Below are positions 39,605 to 54,170 of a stretch of 54,496 bases of DNA, piece by piece. Every line of letters begins with the position of its first letter. Positions within the stretch are counted from its first letter, which is position 1. The position numbers were made by a program, and so were the translations under genes. Origin of the DNA: Terriglobia bacterium (GTDB taxonomy: Bacteria > Acidobacteriota > Vicinamibacteria > Vicinamibacterales > CAVVIG01); assembly GCA_020073005.1 (NCBI GenBank), contig JAIQFX010000046.1, positions 1 through 54,496 of the forward strand. Reading direction: 5' to 3'. The notes under the pieces were generated by a model. It searched no databases and was not told where the DNA came from. It saw nothing but the letters and a program-made list of their open reading frames with translations.

Positions 39605-40399
39605 TTGTTTTCCAATCTCGCCAACCTGATTCGCTACCGCGGGCTCATTCAGAGCCTGGTCGCGCGGGAACTGAAGGCGCGCTACCGGGGCTCGGCCCTC
39701 GGCTTCCTCTGGTCGTTCATCAATCCGCTGCTCCTGCTGTCGATCTACTCGTTCGTCTTCGCCGTCGTCATCCCCGGCCTGCACACGAACGACATCGAGC
39801 CGTACGCGCTTTTCATGTTCTGCGGCATCCTGCCGTGGACGTGGTTCTCCTCGTCTTTGCTCGAGTCTTCGGGGTCGCTCATCGCCGGCGGCAACCTTAT
39901 TAAGAAGGTGCTGTTCCCGGCCGAGATCCTGCCCATCACCAGCGTGCTGGCGAACATGGTCCATTTCTTCCTGGGCCTGCCGATTCTCATCGCCTTCCTT
40001 ATCTACTTCCGCCGCTGGCCGGACCCGCTCGATCTCCTCTGGTTCCCGGTCGTCGTCGTCGTGCAGCTCGTGTTTACGACCGCCCTCGCGTTGATCTTCT
40101 CGGCGTTGATGGTGCACTTCCGGGATCTGCGCGACATTCTGTCCAACCTGCTCACGCTCTGGTTCTTCGCGACGCCGATCATCTATTCGATGCGCGAGGC
40201 GCCGGGCCTCGGCAAGCGCGTCCTCGATCTCAATCCGATGACGCACCTGATCGTGAGCTACCAGGAGATCCTGTTCTTCCCCGGCGCCATCGGGCACTGG
40301 AAGTGGCTGCTCGCGCTCGGCGCAGCGTCGATCCTGCTGTTCCTGGCCGGTTACTGGGTGTTCGATCGCCTGCGCGACTCGTTCGCGGAGTCCGTATGA
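39605..40399 (+). CDS. ABC-2 polysaccharide exporter permease (Wzm/TagG type)
   Basis: A 264-residue membrane protein with about six hydrophobic helices, e.g. [39 protein letters not shown] and [15 protein letters not shown] before the last helices. The N-terminal [20 protein letters not shown] is characteristic of ABC-2 permeases exporting O-antigen or teichoic-acid-like polysaccharide. The start is TTG directly after the atpC stop, without a visible ribosome site, but no other start precedes the conserved N-terminus. It overlaps its ATPase partner (ATGA). Confidence 0.9.
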
Positions 40400-41610
40400 C
40401 GCCGGCCATCGAGCTCAATCACGTCACCAAGATTTACCGGAAATACAGCGGCCGGCATTTCGCGACGCTCAAGAGCGCGCTGCTGCAGCGCAGCATCCTT
40501 CGCGATCTGCGCCCGGGCGAGGCCTTCCCGGCGCTGACCGACGTGTCGTTCACCGTCCCGAAAGGCTCGACCTTCGGCGTCATCGGGCGCAACGGTTCCG
40601 GCAAGAGCACGGCGCTGAAGCTCGTCGCGGGCATCACGAAACCGACGAGCGGATTCGTGAAGGTCGACGGCCGCATTTCCGCGCTCATCGAGCTCGGCGC
40701 CGGATTCCATCCCGAGATCTCCGGCCGCGAGAACGTCTTCATCAACGGCATCATGCTCGGGCTCACGAAGCGCGAGATCACGGACCGCTTCGACGAGATC
40801 GTGGACTTCGCCGAGCTGCGCGACTTCATCGACGCGCCCGTCATCCTGCTCATCGACGAAGTTCTCGCCGTCGGAGACGAGGCGTTCACGCACAAGTGTC
40901 TCGACAAGTTCGGCGAGTTCCGCCGTCGCGGCAAGACGATCCTGCTCGTCACGCACTCGCTGCCGCTCGTCGAGCGTTTTTGCGACGAAGCGATCTGGCT
41001 CGACGGCGGCCGCGCGCTCGCGCACGGCGATCCGAAGCGCGTCGTCGACGCCTATCTCACCAAAGTCGAGGAAGGCGAAGGACAACTCCTGGCGGCGACG
41101 ACGGCGAAGGCCGTCGAGACGGCTGTCGTCGAAGCCGCGCCGGCGAACATGTTCGAGGCGACCGAGGGGCGATGGGGATCGCGGGACGTCGAGATCACCG
41201 GCGTCACCCTCGTGGATCGAGAAGGGCAGCCGTCGTTTGTTTTTCACGCCGGCGACCCGATGTCGATCACGCTCGCGGTGCGCGCCGCCCGGCCGATCGA
41301 CGACTTCGCGTTCGGCATCGGCGTCTTCAACGCGGACGGCGTCTGCTGCTTCGGCACCAACACCGATATCGAAGCGCTGCAGTCCGAGCAGTTGTCCGGC
41401 GACGGCGAGGTCACGTTTGCGATCGACAGCCTCGACCTCGTCGAAGGGACGTACAAGCTCGACGTCGCCGTCCACAAGCGCGACGGCGCCCCGTACGATT
41501 ACCATCGTCTGCTGTACACCTTCCGCGTGAAGTCGCGCACGCACGACGTGGGCATCTATCGCCCGCGCCACCACTGGCGCTTTTCGTCGAACGTGCGGTT
41601 CAAGCCGTGA
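40396..41610 (+). CDS. Wzt-type polysaccharide ABC ATPase lacking the signature motif
   Basis: A 404-residue ATPase partner of the permease. The nucleotide-binding domain has Walker [10 protein letters not shown] (64-72), the [17 protein letters not shown] region (98-114), Walker [14 protein letters not shown] (150-162) and the switch histidine in THSLPL (187). The C-terminal domain (about 235-400) resembles the Wzt carbohydrate-binding domain ([20 protein letters not shown]). Oddity: where homologues read FIDxPV followed by K..YSSGM..RL.F....H.DPD, this protein goes from FIDAPV directly into ILLIDE, so about 20-25 residues with the ABC signature loop are missing without a frame break (junction near base 40843). 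It may be inactive, or the window may hold a local deletion error. Confidence 0.85.
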
Positions 41611-42068
41611 CCCGGGCCGACGCCGTCACGCTGGTCGAACGGCTTCGGGCGGCACGCAAGACGGTCGTGTTCACCAACGGCGTGTTCGATCTGCTTCATC
41701 CCGGGCACATCCGGTATCTGCAGCAGGCCAGGGCGCTGGGCGACGCGCTGATCGTCGGCGTGAATTCCGACCGCTCGGTGCGCGCGAACAAGGGACCCGC
41801 GCGCCCGATCACGCCCGAACAGGAACGCGCTGAGATTCTTGCCGCGCTTGCGTGTGTGGATGCCGCGGTCATCTTCGACGAGGAGACGCCGCACGATCTC
41901 ATCGCGGCGCTGCAGCCGGACGTCCTTGTCAAAGGCGCCGACTGGGCCGCGGACGCCATCGTCGGCCGTGATATCGTCGAAGCGCGTGGCGGGCGAGTGG
42001 TCCGCATCGCGATCGAGCGCGGATTCTCGACCACGAGAATCATCGACAACGTGCGGCGCCTCCCGTAG
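41607..42068 (+). CDS. rfaE2: D-glycero-beta-D-manno-heptose 1-phosphate adenylyltransferase
   Basis: A 153-residue nucleotidyltransferase equal to the C-terminal domain of HldE, here as a separate protein. It activates heptose-1-phosphate to ADP-heptose for LPS inner-core or other glycans. Motifs: [20 protein letters not shown], with the HxGH nucleotide site, then [18 protein letters not shown] and [12 protein letters not shown]. The start is GTG at 41607 overlapping the upstream stop (GTGA). Next to the polysaccharide exporter it supports an LPS-type envelope function for this operon. The partner kinase is not in the window. Confidence 0.92.
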
Positions 42069-47288: not shown

Positions 47289-47822
47289 GTGGAGTCACCA
47301 GCCACCAGCCACCAGCCACGGGTCATTGAGGCCGCCCAGTGGTTCGCCATCTGGACGCGGTCGCGCCACGAGCAGACCGTGCGCGAGCAGCTCGAGCGCA
47401 AGCGCATCGACGCCTTCCTGCCGACGATTCCGAAGTGGAGCCGCTGGAAGGACCGCAAGAAGAAGATCGACTGGCCGCTCTTCCCCGGCTACTGCTTCGC
47501 GCGCTTCGATCCCGCCGACGCGCTGCCGATCCTCAAGTGCACCGGCGTCGTGAACATCGTCTCGTTCGAGGGAAAACCGGCGGCGATTCCCGAGTACGAG
47601 CTCGAGAGCATCCGCGTCCTCGTCGGCAGCGAACTGCAGTTCGATCCGTGCCCGTTAATACATCAAGGGATGATGGTCGAGGTCGTCCACGGACCGCTGC
47701 GCGGCGTCGTCGGCCGGCTCCTCCGCAAGGACGCACCCAAGGCGCGCCTGATTCTGTCCGTGGATCTTATCGGACAAGCCGTCAGCGTCGAAGTCGACGC
47801 GGCTGACGTGAAAGCGTACTAG
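47289..47822 (+). CDS. NusG-like (RfaH/UpxY-type) antitermination factor
   Basis: A 177-residue specialised NusG paralogue. The NGN domain is WFAIWTRSRHEQTVREQLERK, then FPGYCFARFDP, and the KOW motif MVEVVHGPLRGVVGRLLRK is near the C-terminus. Such factors promote transcription of long polysaccharide or envelope operons. The only normal start before the NGN domain is GTG 47289, so the first residues MESPATSHQPR are encoded by a CCAGCCA repeat array. It begins three bases after the isomerase gene and is convergent with the M48-like gene. Confidence 0.85.
   Translation: MESPATSHQPRVIEAAQWFAIWTRSRHEQTVREQLERKRIDAFLPTIPKWSRWKDRKKKIDWPLFPGYCFARFDPADALPILKCTGVVNIVSFEGKPAAIPEYELESIRVLVGSELQFDPCPLIHQGMMVEVVHGPLRGVVGRLLRKDAPKARLILSVDLIGQAVSVEVDAADVKAY
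47291..47325. repeat. heptamer array CCAGCCA (5 units) at the start of the NusG-like gene
   Basis: GGAGTCA, CCAGCCA three times, CGGGTCA: five 7-bp units starting in the GTG start codon of the NusG-like gene. Confidence 0.85.
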
Positions 47823-50703: not shown

Positions 50704-50745
50704 GACTCTTCGCTTTTCACTTTTCTCTTTTAAGTTTCAACTTTG
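50704..50745. repeat. heptamer array before dus (6 degenerate units)
   Basis: GACTCTT, CGCTTTT, CACTTTT, CTCTTTT, AAGTTTC, AACTTTG: six 7-bp units. Reverse complemented they resemble the AAACTGA/AAAGGCA units before glmS. The last unit contains the TTG start codon of dus. Confidence 0.7.
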
Positions 50746-51774
50746 AACATAGGCTCTGTCTCCTTACCGTCGCCGTTCGCCATCGCCCCCATGGCGGGCA
50801 TGACCGATACCGCGTTCCGCCGCCTCGTGAAGCGGCAGGGCGGCTGCGGCCTGGTCGTGACCGAGATGGTCAGCGCGGAGGGTCTCGTGCGCGGCATCGA
50901 CCGCACGCTCGAGTACACCGAATACACCCAGGAAGAGCGGCCGATCGCCATTCAGATTTTCGGCGGCGATCCCGAGAAGATGGCCGCCGCCGCGCAAATC
51001 GTCGAAGGCATGGGCGCGGACATCGTCGACGTGAACATGGGATGCCCGGTGCCGAAGATCGCGAAGCACAACGCGGGATGCAGCCTGATGCGCGAGCCGG
51101 CGCACGCGGCGAGCGTGATCGCGGCGATGTCGAAAGCCGTGAAGATTCCGGTGACCGTGAAGATGCGCGCCGGGTGGAACGATGACGAGCGCACCGCGCC
51201 GGCGCTGGCGCGGATGGTCGAGGACGCCGGCGCCGCCGCGATCGCCGTTCACGGCCGCACCGCGGCGCAGAGCTACAGCGGTTCCGCCGACTGGGATCTC
51301 GTCGCGAGCATTGCCGGGGCGCTCACGATCCCGGTTTTCGGGAGCGGCGATTGCATCGAAGCCTCTCAGATAATTGACAAGCTGCACGCGGGCGTCGAGG
51401 GCGTGCTGGTCGGTCGCGGCGTGCTGCGCAACCCGTGGATTCTCGCTCAGGCGGCGGACATCGCCGCCGGGCGTCAGCCGCGCGAAATCACGCTCGAGGA
51501 TCGTGGCAGGTTTCTAATCGACTACATCGATCTCCTGCGTGAGGAGCGAGTGCGTCCCAGCCACCAGCCACCAGCCACCAGTCACGCATCGTCAGCCAAC
51601 AGCCACGACCGTTGGGTCATCAACAAGCTCCGAGCTCTTGGTTCCTGGTACACCAAGGGGCTCGACAACGGCTCGCATCTGAGGACCGCCATCAACCGCG
51701 CCGACTCGATCGCGGCGCTTCGCGAAACAATCACCGACTTTTTCTTCGCCGGCGCGCGCGTTTTCAGCCAGTAA
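50743..51774 (+). CDS. dusB: tRNA-dihydrouridine synthase
   Basis: A 343-residue FMN enzyme reducing uridines in tRNA D-loops. TIM-barrel motifs: PFAIAPMAGMTDTAFRRL, then GADIVDVNMGCPVPKI with the catalytic Cys101, VKMRAGWNDDERTA, IAVHGRTAAQSYSG and VLVGRGVLRNPWIL. The TTG start at 50743 lies in a heptamer array and is the only start before the conserved N-terminus. Between the barrel and the C-terminal helical domain (residues 272-288) seven 7-bp repeat units are translated as [17 protein letters not shown], an insertion without family counterpart. B-type is likely from the nifR3-like pattern, but the symbol is not certain. Confidence 0.92.
   Translation: MNIGSVSLPSPFAIAPMAGMTDTAFRRLVKRQGGCGLVVTEMVSAEGLVRGIDRTLEYTEYTQEERPIAIQIFGGDPEKMAAAAQIVEGMGADIVDVNMGCPVPKIAKHNAGCSLMREPAHAASVIAAMSKAVKIPVTVKMRAGWNDDERTAPALARMVEDAGAAAIAVHGRTAAQSYSGSADWDLVASIAGALTIPVFGSGDCIEASQIIDKLHAGVEGVLVGRGVLRNPWILAQAADIAAGRQPREITLEDRGRFLIDYIDLLREERVRPSHQPPATSHASSANSHDRWVINKLRALGSWYTKGLDNGSHLRTAINRADSIAALRETITDFFFAGARVFSQ
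51557..51605. repeat. heptamer array CCAGCCA (7 units) inside dus
   Basis: CCAGCCA three times, CCAGTCA, CGCATCG, TCAGCCA, ACAGCCA: seven units (49 bases) read through in the dus frame. Confidence 0.85.
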
Positions 51775-51815
51775 CAATTCTGTCAGTATCGTTTTTGACC
51801 CATTCTGTATTTCCA

Positions 51816-51843
51816 TTGACACGCTCCTTCACCTGAGTAGAAT
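51816..51843 (+). promoter_or_regulatory. sigma-70-type promoter before the lipoprotein gene
   Basis: TTGACA (51816-51821), 16-base spacer, TAGAAT (51838-51843). This is the best promoter match in the window and implies a leader of about 140 bases. Confidence 0.65.
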
Positions 51844-51922: not shown

Positions 51923-51988
51923 TCCTCGAAGGAAGTGAAGAGCACGCTGTAACTCACGGGGCGGAGCACTGCCAGCCAAGAGCACGAT

Positions 51989-52660
51989 TTGGCTAAATAC
52001 CAGAAAAACTGCAACCCACAACTAATTGTAGGAATGTATGTTCTGGCGATAGCCCTATCATTTGGCGCCTGCGGCGGCAGCAGTCAGGACGCACGGAAAG
52101 TCATCACGCCCGAGTACGACAAGAAGACCGGCAAGCTGCAGCTGTTGAAGTACGACGCGAACGGCAACGGCAAGATCGACACCTGGAGCTACATGGACGG
52201 CGCGCGCGTCGTCCGCATCGAGATCGACAAGGACGAGGACGGCAAGATCGACCGCTGGGAGTACTACGACGCGAATCAGAAACTCGAGAAGGTCGGCTTC
52301 TCGCGCTTGAGCGACGGCAAGGAAGATGCGTGGTCGTACACCGGGCCGGACGGGTCGCTTCTCCGCATCGACGTGTCGACGAAGCGCGACGGCAAGGTCA
52401 CGCGTATCGAGCACTACCAGCAGAATCGGCTCGTCACGGCGGAAGAAGACACCGACGAGGACGGCAAGATCGACAAGTGGGAGACCTACGAAGGCGATCG
52501 TCTCGCGTCGATCGCCTTCGACACGCTGCATCGCGGCACGCCCGATCGACGTCTGACCTACGGTGCCGACGGGACAGCGAAGCTCGAAATCGATCGCGCC
52601 GGAGACGGGCATTTCGTCGCGGCGGAAGAACGTCCGGCAGCGCCGCGCCCTCGGCGCTAG
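51989..52660 (+). CDS. putative lipoprotein with DxDxDG calcium-binding-like repeats
   Basis: A 223-residue protein. A signal-like N-terminus (QLIVGMYVLAIALSFGACGG) ends in a possible lipobox with Cys28. The mature part contains three loops of the EF-hand or dockerin kind: DANGNGKIDTWSY, DKDEDGKIDRWEYY and DTDEDGKIDKWETY, each followed by a beta strand with aromatic residues, and shorter related copies. Such loops could bind calcium. The start is TTG 51989; an ATG at 52034 would shorten the signal. The coding start is AT-rich relative to the rest. Preceded by a strong promoter and followed by a heptamer array. Confidence 0.7.
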   Translation: MAKYQKNCNPQLIVGMYVLAIALSFGACGGSSQDARKVITPEYDKKTGKLQLLKYDANGNGKIDTWSYMDGARVVRIEIDKDEDGKIDRWEYYDANQKLEKVGFSRLSDGKEDAWSYTGPDGSLLRIDVSTKRDGKVTRIEHYQQNRLVTAEEDTDEDGKIDKWETYEGDRLASIAFDTLHRGTPDRRLTYGADGTAKLEIDRAGDGHFVAAEERPAAPRPRR

Positions 52661-52662
52661 CA

Positions 52663-52728
52663 GCACCCGGCACCCAGCACCCGGCACCCAGCACGGCACT
52701 CGGCACCCCGCACCAGGCACCCAGCACC
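52663..52728. repeat. heptamer array GCACCCA/G (9 units plus one 5-mer)
   Basis: GCACCCG and GCACCCA alternate twice, then a 5-base unit, then GCACTCG, GCACCCC, GCACCAG, GCACCCA and a partial GCACC. The array fills the gap between the lipoprotein stop and the GTG start of the regulator. Confidence 0.85.
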
Positions 52729-52733
52729 ATTTA

Positions 52734-54110
52734 GTGAAGTCCGTCCTCTACCTCGGCTGTCCCGTCTCCGAACGGGCGGACGCTGAACGGCAGCTCGGCT
52801 CGGCCGACGTGTCGGTCGTATGGGCTGACACCGCCGCCTACGCGCTCGGCGAGCTGCAGCGGCGCGATCTGCCCGTGCTGCTCGACCTGTCGCGCGGCGC
52901 GACGGCGCTGCAGCACGCGCGCGAAATTCGCGCGCACCGTGCCTCGACGCTGATGTTCGCCGTCGTCGACGCGCGGCGGCCGGAGCTCACGATCGAAGCG
53001 CTCCTCACCGGCATGGCCGACGTGTTCGCGCGTCCGCTCGGCGGGCGCCGCGTGGCGAACGCCATCGATCGCGAGCTGGAATACGAGTCGTGCCAGCAGG
53101 GGCAGGGCGCGGGCGTCGCGCGGAAGAGCGGCGTGGATCTGTACGGGCACTCGATCGCGATGCGCGACGTCCTGGCGCTCATCGCGCGCGCCGCGACGAT
53201 GCGCGCGGGCGTGCTGATTCGGGGCGAGAAGGGCACGGGCCGGCAACTCGCCGCGCGCGCGATTCATGATCAGCAGGCGGGACCGGGCGGGGCGTTTCTC
53301 GTGATTGACTGCGCGACCATCGATCCCGCGCAGATGGACGTCGAGCTCTTCGGCGTGCCCGGCCGGGCCGCGACTGACAGCGGTGTGGACGTCCTGGAGT
53401 TCGTCGGCCGCAAGAGCCGCGTGTATGAGGCGCGCGGCGGCACGGTGTACCTCAAGCACGTGGCCGAATTGCCGGCGCGGGTGCAGCGGCGCCTCGCGCG
53501 CGTGCTGCGCGATCGCGAGGTCCTGCTCGTCGAGACCGGCCAGGCGGTCAGCCTCGACGTGCGTCCGGTGGCCGGCGTCGAGCCGGGCTTCGATGCCGTG
53601 GTCGCCGACGGCCGTGTCCGCGACGATTTGTTCCGGCGCCTCTCGGTGATCACGATCGACATGCCCCCGCTGCGCAGCCGTCGCGAGGATATTCCGGCGC
53701 TGGCCAATCACTTCCTGCGCGAAACCTGCGCCTCCCTGCGCGTCCCGCCACGGACGTTGTCGCGGGCGGCGCTCCTGCTGATCGCCGCGCTGCCGTGGCA
53801 CGGCAATGCCATGGAGTTGCGCGTCCTGCTCGAGAGTCTTGTCACCGGGCTGCCGGCCGGACGAGGCATCGGCATCGAGGACGTGCTCGCGCACGTGCGT
53901 CTCGACGGCGGGTCCGCGGCGTTCTCGGGAGGCGGATCGCTGAAGCAGGCGCGGGCCAGGTTCGAGCGCGAGTACATCACCGCGGTCCTGGAGCAGCATC
54001 AGGGCCGGATCAGCGAGGCGGCCAAGACCCTCGGGATCCAGCGGACTAACCTTTATAGAAAGCTGCGATCTCTCCCCGTGGCCCGGATTCGCCGCCAGGC
54101 ACGTTCGTAG
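52734..54110 (+). CDS. NtrC-like regulator with degenerate ATPase and receiver
   Basis: A 458-residue protein with the architecture of sigma-54 activators: an N-terminal receiver-like domain (1-115), a central AAA+ domain (138-375) and a C-terminal Fis-type helix-turn-helix (ISEAAKTLGIQRTNLYRKL, 426-444). Key residues are altered. The receiver lacks the N-terminal acidic pair and has Arg100 in place of the conserved Lys (FARPL). Walker A is GEKGTGRQ, with Arg170 in place of Lys. After ELFG (204-207) the GAFTGA loop is absent. Walker B GGTVYLKH has Lys-His for Asp-Glu. The RDDLFRRLSV arginine segment is kept. It probably binds DNA but does not activate sigma-54 polymerase. The GTG start has a heptamer array directly upstream. 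Confidence 0.82.
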   Translation: MKSVLYLGCPVSERADAERQLGSADVSVVWADTAAYALGELQRRDLPVLLDLSRGATALQHAREIRAHRASTLMFAVVDARRPELTIEALLTGMADVFARPLGGRRVANAIDRELEYESCQQGQGAGVARKSGVDLYGHSIAMRDVLALIARAATMRAGVLIRGEKGTGRQLAARAIHDQQAGPGGAFLVIDCATIDPAQMDVELFGVPGRAATDSGVDVLEFVGRKSRVYEARGGTVYLKHVAELPARVQRRLARVLRDREVLLVETGQAVSLDVRPVAGVEPGFDAVVADGRVRDDLFRRLSVITIDMPPLRSRREDIPALANHFLRETCASLRVPPRTLSRAALLLIAALPWHGNAMELRVLLESLVTGLPAGRGIGIEDVLAHVRLDGGSAAFSGGGSLKQARARFEREYITAVLEQHQGRISEAAKTLGIQRTNLYRKLRSLPVARIRRQARS

Positions 54111-54170
54111 GAGCTTCGCCCTTGACGGAATCGGGCCAAAGGGCAGATATTTGACGTGAGGTTGACCGCC

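Follow-up and report, generated by a model that had tools for sequence, protein, structure and literature searches.

A Vicinamibacterales clade of NtrC-family proteins with degenerate AAA+ motifs, probably regulators of polysaccharide export at sigma-70-type promoters

Near the end of a 54,496-nucleotide stretch of Vicinamibacterales DNA (the window), a gene encodes a pseudo-enhancer-binding protein, pEBP-A, that belongs to a clade of NtrC-family proteins with shared losses in the AAA+ domain, an invariant DNA-binding helix, and a common place at polysaccharide-export loci. We consider pEBP-A to be probably a DNA-binding regulator of exopolysaccharide export that needs no ATP and is autoregulated, acting at sigma-70-type promoters and presumably as an activator. 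The features discussed below are collected in Table 1.

Table 1. Features of the window, with the basis of each assignment or remarks on it
Feature	Coordinates	Strand	Basis or remarks
UpxY-family NusG paralogue (antiterminator)	47289..47822	+	114.2 bits vs cut-off 100; same neighborhood in relatives
dusB (tRNA-dihydrouridine synthase), flanking gene	50743..51774	+	Pfam, gene order
Putative tandem operator half-sites GTATC (51786) and TGTATT (51806)	51786..51815	+	Centered near −63 and −42 relative to the predicted start
Sigma-70-type promoter TTGACA-N16-TAGAAT of the lipoprotein/pEBP genes	51816..51843	+	Promoter scan
Conserved leader element, consensus TGTAAGTCACGGGGCGAAGC	51948..51967	+	Ahead of the first gene; possible ops-like site for UpxY recruitment
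Lipoprotein with EF-hand/dockerin-like DxDGDGKxD repeats	51989..52660	+	Conserved upstream partner
pEBP-A	52734..54110	+	458 aa, GTG start; frame, Pfam, orthologues, tree
Pseudo-receiver domain, residues 1-120	52734..53093	+	C9-P10 at the acidic-pair position, R100 at that of Lys; D51 retained
AAA+ domain and lid, residues 134-388	53133..53897	+	Fold retained
Degenerate Walker A, GEKGTGRQ	53223..53246	+	R170 codon 53241-53243; sequence, alignment
Stretch replacing the GAFTGA loop 1, residues 207-228	53352..53417	+	Variable; model confidence partly low
K241-H242 instead of Walker B DE	53454..53459	+	Sequence, alignment
Fis-type HTH, residues 403-446	53940..54071	+	Invariant R-x-N-L-Y-R-K recognition helix; HTH dN/dS 0.12
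Small secreted CarboxypepD_reg protein, truncated by the contig end	54171..54494	+	Conserved downstream partner

Pfam places Sigma54_activat (104.8 bits), the AAA lid, and the Fis-type HTH_8 on pEBP-A above their cut-offs, and no receiver model matches at E ≤ 0.1. The AlphaFold2 model (pLDDT 88.9, pTM 0.80, from a 27-row alignment) shows a receiver, an AAA+ domain with its lid, and a C-terminal helical HTH; residues 1–121 adopt the (beta-alpha)5 receiver fold, with block pLDDT values of about 90–97. Structure prediction of the AAA+ pocket had been proposed as a check, and the fold is indeed kept: the domain superposes on FleQ, NtrC1, and VpsR with Z scores of about 22, at 2.5–2.9 Å over 238 residues. 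The architecture is thus that of the NtrC family by descent, with a receiver, a Sigma54_activat-family AAA+ domain, and a Fis-type HTH in a protein that is nested among enhancer-binding proteins (EBPs) in the tree described below.

The original prediction had described a GAFTGA-less protein with Arg for the Walker A Lys, KH for the Walker B DE, and a receiver lacking its acidic pair and Lys, in which domain order, arginine segment, and Fis-type helix remain. All of this stands: the Walker A lysine is replaced by R170 (GEKGTGRQ) and the Walker B DE by K241 and H242 (YLKHV), there is no GAFTGA loop, and in the receiver C9-P10 occupies the place of the acidic pair and R100 that of the lysine. The alignment adds E283 for the sensor I N/S and M360 for the sensor II R. 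Omitted from that prediction was the aspartate equivalent to the phospho-acceptor, D51, which is present here and in 18 of the 20 relatives that have a receiver; the aligned acidic pair, Thr, and Lys are each kept in none of the 20. Judged by its sequence, pEBP-A would not qualify as a sigma-54 enhancer-binding activator, with GAFTGA, the Walker A Lys, and the Walker B Asp-Glu all gone. Members of the family are likely to be annotated as sigma-54 activators, to go by their Pfam and NCBIfam matches.

A homologue search covering 27 genomes of the family, 162 of the order, and 193 of the class returned two sets: orthologues that share these losses (group A), and shorter proteins that have no receiver (group B). 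The set analyzed here comprises 29 group A and 19 group B proteins from 40 genomes of one order, seven of which, including the window's own, carry both groups. Fragments below 230 aa and duplicates were excluded from the tree, and group B matches such as that on G012:C229 were not all taken into the set. A scan of genome contigs gave four loci, with L050 (a Vicinamibacterales MAG, 49%) as the one good relative. We found no description of such a regulator family in Vicinamibacterales in the open-access papers searched.

The phylogeny, likewise proposed at the outset, places all 48 pEBPs in a single clade (support 100/100) of an 84-protein tree built after the columns for Walker motifs, loop 1, and sensors had been removed. 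Closest to them are ten intact proteins with GAFTGA that come from a different order within the class (99/95), group B forms one branch inside group A (100/98), and a single change from intact to pseudo suffices to label the tree. GAFTGA is present in none of the 48 homologues vs all 36 intact paralogues. The Walker A lysine is retained by 2 of 29 group A proteins (L142 and L077) and none of the 19 in group B; the Walker B Asp by none of group A and 2 of 19 in group B, and the Glu by none and one, respectively. Group B also lacks the Walker A glycine at 164 and, in 17 of 19 proteins, that at 169. By comparison, R302 and the HTH residues R437, N439, Y441, and K443 are found in 48 of 48 homologues, and the arginine segment is mostly kept. 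Loss of loop 1 and Walker B appears to have preceded loss of Walker A, because the deepest-branching pair, L142 and L078, lacks both GAFTGA and Walker B while L142 still has the Walker A Lys; this order is to be read with caution, since L077, nested deeper, also has the Lys.

The eight closest members of the clade are under purifying selection: over 28 pairs the median dN/dS is 0.29 overall, and by domain 0.26 for the receiver, 0.30 for the AAA+ domain, and 0.12 for the HTH, with 1.8 in the linker between receiver and AAA+ domain. Conservation and selection rule out decay and favor the repurposed regulator that had been proposed, one that would bind DNA without ATP. Two individual proteins deserve mention. 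L080, the group B paralogue of the window's own genome (contig C119), has kept the Walker B DE and lost the P-loop (GSDAD), the reverse of the window protein's pattern; it stands at the head of another Wza operon, which also carries the composite site described below. The pEBP-A homologue L210 (G016) aligns over the AAA+ domain alone, the R.NLYRK helix was not found in that stretch, and it is possibly a truncated or frameshifted copy.

The majority of loci share one gene order: Ca-repeat lipoprotein, regulator, small secreted protein, outer-membrane barrel, Wza, and Wzc. The lipoprotein was matched in 20 of 27 group A loci (L054–L079 plus L142). Downstream of the regulator, among 23 oriented loci (L057, L064, and L067 were left out), the small secreted CarboxypepD_reg protein is found in 13, a BBP2_2/EpsL-like barrel in 20, and a Wza-type export protein and a Wzc-type chain-length kinase in 17 each; Wza and Wzc do not follow the regulator in L054, L055, L056, and L059. 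For group B, Wza lies immediately downstream in eight of nine loci, and the ninth is at a contig end. The lipoprotein and the secreted protein, named from the start as candidate targets, therefore adjoin the regulator in many genomes, and the former also has a locus-specific tandem site in front of its promoter; the original prediction missed the polysaccharide-export identity of the cluster and the receiver-less paralogue with the same site.

The window probably forms the left border of a large cluster of polysaccharide genes, because its contig ends in the small secreted-protein gene and contig C130 of the same genome opens inside a Wza gene, followed by Wzc and, by eye, further frames resembling glycan-synthesis genes. 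The barrel gene was not found in a search of this genome and probably falls in the gap between contigs C133 and C130. Elsewhere in the window, positions 40303–42068 hold a Wzt_C-type ABC transporter ATPase and a cytidylyltransferase-like gene, possibly further surface-polysaccharide genes. The gap between lipoprotein and regulator (52660–52733) consists of short CAGCACCCGGCACC-type repeats, and similar ones lie 5′ of the lipoprotein in L069. In G007, two adjacent divergent frames with NtrC-like AAA+ starts (VHLVGRS.., VQLIGAS..; L087, 11159–13920) stand 5′ of what looks by eye like another polysaccharide locus. Rfam gave no match at the gathering score in eight loci; a single weak match in the window, under that score, was judged to be chance.

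Upstream of a sigma-70-type promoter, pEBP loci carry the tandem site GTATC-N14-17-GTAT. Among 41 intergenic regions (13 downstream and 13 upstream of group A, 13 upstream of group B, and two from the window), GATACA/TGTATC tops all 6-mers for enrichment, being present in 22 vs 3.0 expected; the half-site had been spotted by eye in the same regions before counting, and the count ranked all 6-mers. As an inverted repeat with a spacer of 6 it occurs 13 times vs 0.12 expected; across 200 shuffles, no spacer gave more than three dyads. Sigma-70-type promoters were found in 18 of the 41 regions (2.1 in shuffled sequence, maximum 6; none on the reverse strand). Half-sites near −63 and −42 of the promoter are present in the window, L055, L080, L081, L145, and L149; counted near all 18 promoters they accompany 13, a modest enrichment over mononucleotide shuffles (mean 4.6, maximum 13). 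In the window's own export promoter (54122–54151), no half-site was found.

The operator–promoter composite as a whole is specific to pEBP loci. Searching 161 whole genomes for GTATC-N14-17-GTAT-N5-8-TTGACA gave 16 sites in 14 genomes and none with the reversed control, and all 16, including 51786–51821 of the window, are at pEBP-locus promoters: seven 5′ of the lipoprotein, seven 5′ of pEBP-B, one 5′ of a pEBP-A without lipoprotein, and one 3′ of dusB, where the contig ends ahead of the expected lipoprotein. Seven of the 16 lie outside the 41 discovery regions. The window's genome has exactly two composite sites, one before each pEBP operon, so that the receiver-less paralogue has the same site. 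The exact dyad alone occurs at 12 sites in the 161 genomes; four are at pEBP loci, and no pEBP was found in the surrounding stretch fetched for the other eight.

Most group A and B loci also have a 20–21 bp leader element between promoter and first gene. Genome-wide it occurs at 76 sites in 60 of the 161 genomes (control, 1). At 26 of 30 fetched loci it adjoins a pEBP, lipoprotein, or dusB/UpxY gene in the expected order; L233 has a pEBP-like match on the other side of the element, and three of the 30 have none of these genes. It occurs in genomes with no detected pEBP as well, which makes an ops-like element for UpxY likelier than a site for pEBP. RfaH is reported to be recruited at leader ops sites, and UpxY proteins to work on capsule operons (PMC7593976); we found no paper on this element in the open-access papers searched. 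In the form TGTRASYSRVRGGGCGRAGC it precedes polysaccharide-locus genes, with a UpxY-family gene nearby.

In our favored mechanism, pEBP-A descends from an NtrX-like sigma-54 activator and has lost loop 1 and the catalytic AAA+ residues. The retained AAA+ and receiver folds would probably serve as an assembly scaffold, possibly as a ligand sensor. The Fis-type helix would recognize GTATC half-sites in tandem, or TGTATC-N6-GATACA dyads, that lie near −42 and −63 in sigma-70-type promoters. In this way pEBP-A would control its own lipoprotein–regulator genes together with the adjoining genes for the secreted protein, barrel, Wza, and Wzc. Because the −42/−63 spacing suggests contact with RNA polymerase, we infer activation, with autoregulation; the signal could be a polysaccharide or cell-envelope cue, a nucleotide messenger, or simply concentration. 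A more far-reaching version is conceivable, if on balance doubtful: an order-wide family that has switched completely from sigma-54 activation to sigma-70-type regulation, losing loop 1 and Walker B before Walker A and, within a single branch, also the receiver and P-loop glycines, with the AAA+ fold surviving as a scaffold or sensor that works without ATP and is devoted to polysaccharide export, a private operator common to two paralogues, and a coupled UpxY antiterminator and leader element adding control of elongation to that of initiation in two steps.

Several other readings have to be weighed against this one. With the catalytic residues of both receiver and AAA+ domain gone, a pseudogene or recent functionless decay might be suspected, but the dN/dS of 0.29 over 28 pairs, the same losses across 40 genomes, the invariant HTH residues, and the conserved gene order contradict this and leave it extremely improbable. 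That the same protein at the same sites is a repressor, its −42 occupancy abutting the −35 element and blocking RNA polymerase until a signal arrives, we think rather unlikely: the tandem −42/−63 spacing, which we take to be like that of class I/II activator sites, counts against it, as do the mapped half-sites in the window, which overlap neither the −10 element nor the start. In favor of repression, the −42 half-site stops 4 bp short of TTGACA, and the GAFTGA-less Caulobacter NtrC is reported to repress EPS genes (PMC10274813). An emptied AAA+ pocket could alternatively bind a nucleotide messenger, for example c-di-GMP, and so switch DNA binding, as for VpsR and FleQ. The arginine after Walker A that VfmH is reported to require for c-di-GMP (PMC10714721) corresponds to R175, present in 44 of 48 homologues, with E361 in 47 of 48, and FleQ and VpsR are reported to control polysaccharide genes with c-di-GMP (PMC12564702). 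Both residues are, however, common in intact paralogues too, and hence not diagnostic, and the glycine losses in group B argue against a common nucleotide pocket; we regard a messenger sensor as unlikely.

Two further readings concern where the protein acts. The link between pEBP and GTATC is drawn from sequence, so a different regulator could read the site while pEBP acts elsewhere in the genome, and 8 of the 12 exact dyads do lie away from pEBP genes; the confinement of the composite to pEBP loci of both groups, though their downstream genes differ, makes this distinctly unlikely. As a modulator, pEBP could instead form mixed rings or compete for sites with an active NtrX-like paralogue, tuning sigma-54 promoters. 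Retention of R302 and most of the arginine segment, and the presence of RpoN and many EBP paralogues in the genome, would suit such a role. We nevertheless consider it very unlikely: the promoters at pEBP loci are of sigma-70 type, no dyad within one mismatch was found at ten intact-sister loci, and no −24/−12 match (at least 10 of 12 with GG and GC) was found on the operon strand at 23 loci, in a scan run without a positive control (genome-wide, its pattern gave 29 matches vs 95 in the control, i.e. the scan had no power).

Because an intact sister group exists and the early-branching L142 still has the Walker A Lys, the clade lets one trace the steps by which an ATP-driven sigma-54 activator was converted to the regulation of ordinary promoters. 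The composite supplies a testable DNA site for the family and points to possible control of surface polysaccharide export in Vicinamibacterales.

Among known systems, the nearest by profile and structure is NtrX. Its profile (NF051870) is the best NCBIfam match of pEBP-A, at 208.4 bits vs a cut-off of 600, and Brucella abortus NtrX (PDB 5m7n) is the best PDB match by both sequence and Foldseek E-value; the domain order is the same, and linker and HTH are similar in sequence. The solved Brucella NtrX also lacks GAFTGA but has the Walker A Lys and Walker B Asp-Glu, and has been solved with ATP and ADP; unlike NtrX, pEBP-A lies in a polysaccharide locus. In mode of action, pEBP-A comes closest to VpsR and to those NtrC proteins, in Rhodobacter and Caulobacter, that lack GAFTGA. 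VpsR of Vibrio cholerae is described as a GAFTGA-less NtrC-family regulator of polysaccharide that works at sigma-70 promoters with no requirement for ATP (PMC3162934, PMC10274813, PMC12564702). The pEBP clade shares this mode insofar as GAFTGA is absent and the HTH kept, and the AAA+ folds match (Z 22.1) at an identity of only 21% in the Foldseek alignment; c-di-GMP binding is reported for VpsR and is for pEBP-A a candidate property only. The NtrC proteins of Rhodobacter capsulatus and Caulobacter, in which loop 1 is deleted, are reported to regulate sigma-70 promoters, the latter influencing envelope polysaccharide; R. capsulatus NtrC is said there to require ATP binding and Caulobacter NtrC both Walker A and B (PMC10274813), unlike pEBP-A, which has neither motif. 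TyrR, DhaR, and HupR are described as sigma-70-dependent EBP homologues with GAFTGA altered or deleted (PMC3162934); they serve other pathways, and the TyrR profile scores lower on pEBP-A (130.7 bits). FleQ of Pseudomonas aeruginosa, with a divergent receiver, AAA+ domain, and HTH, is reported to activate the pel polysaccharide genes in a sigma-70-dependent manner, and is set apart by its reported ATPase activity and sigma-54 interaction domain (PMC12564702). What distinguishes the pEBPs from all of these is the joint, clade-wide loss of both Walker motifs and the receiver's catalytic set, in association with one operon type and one control site.
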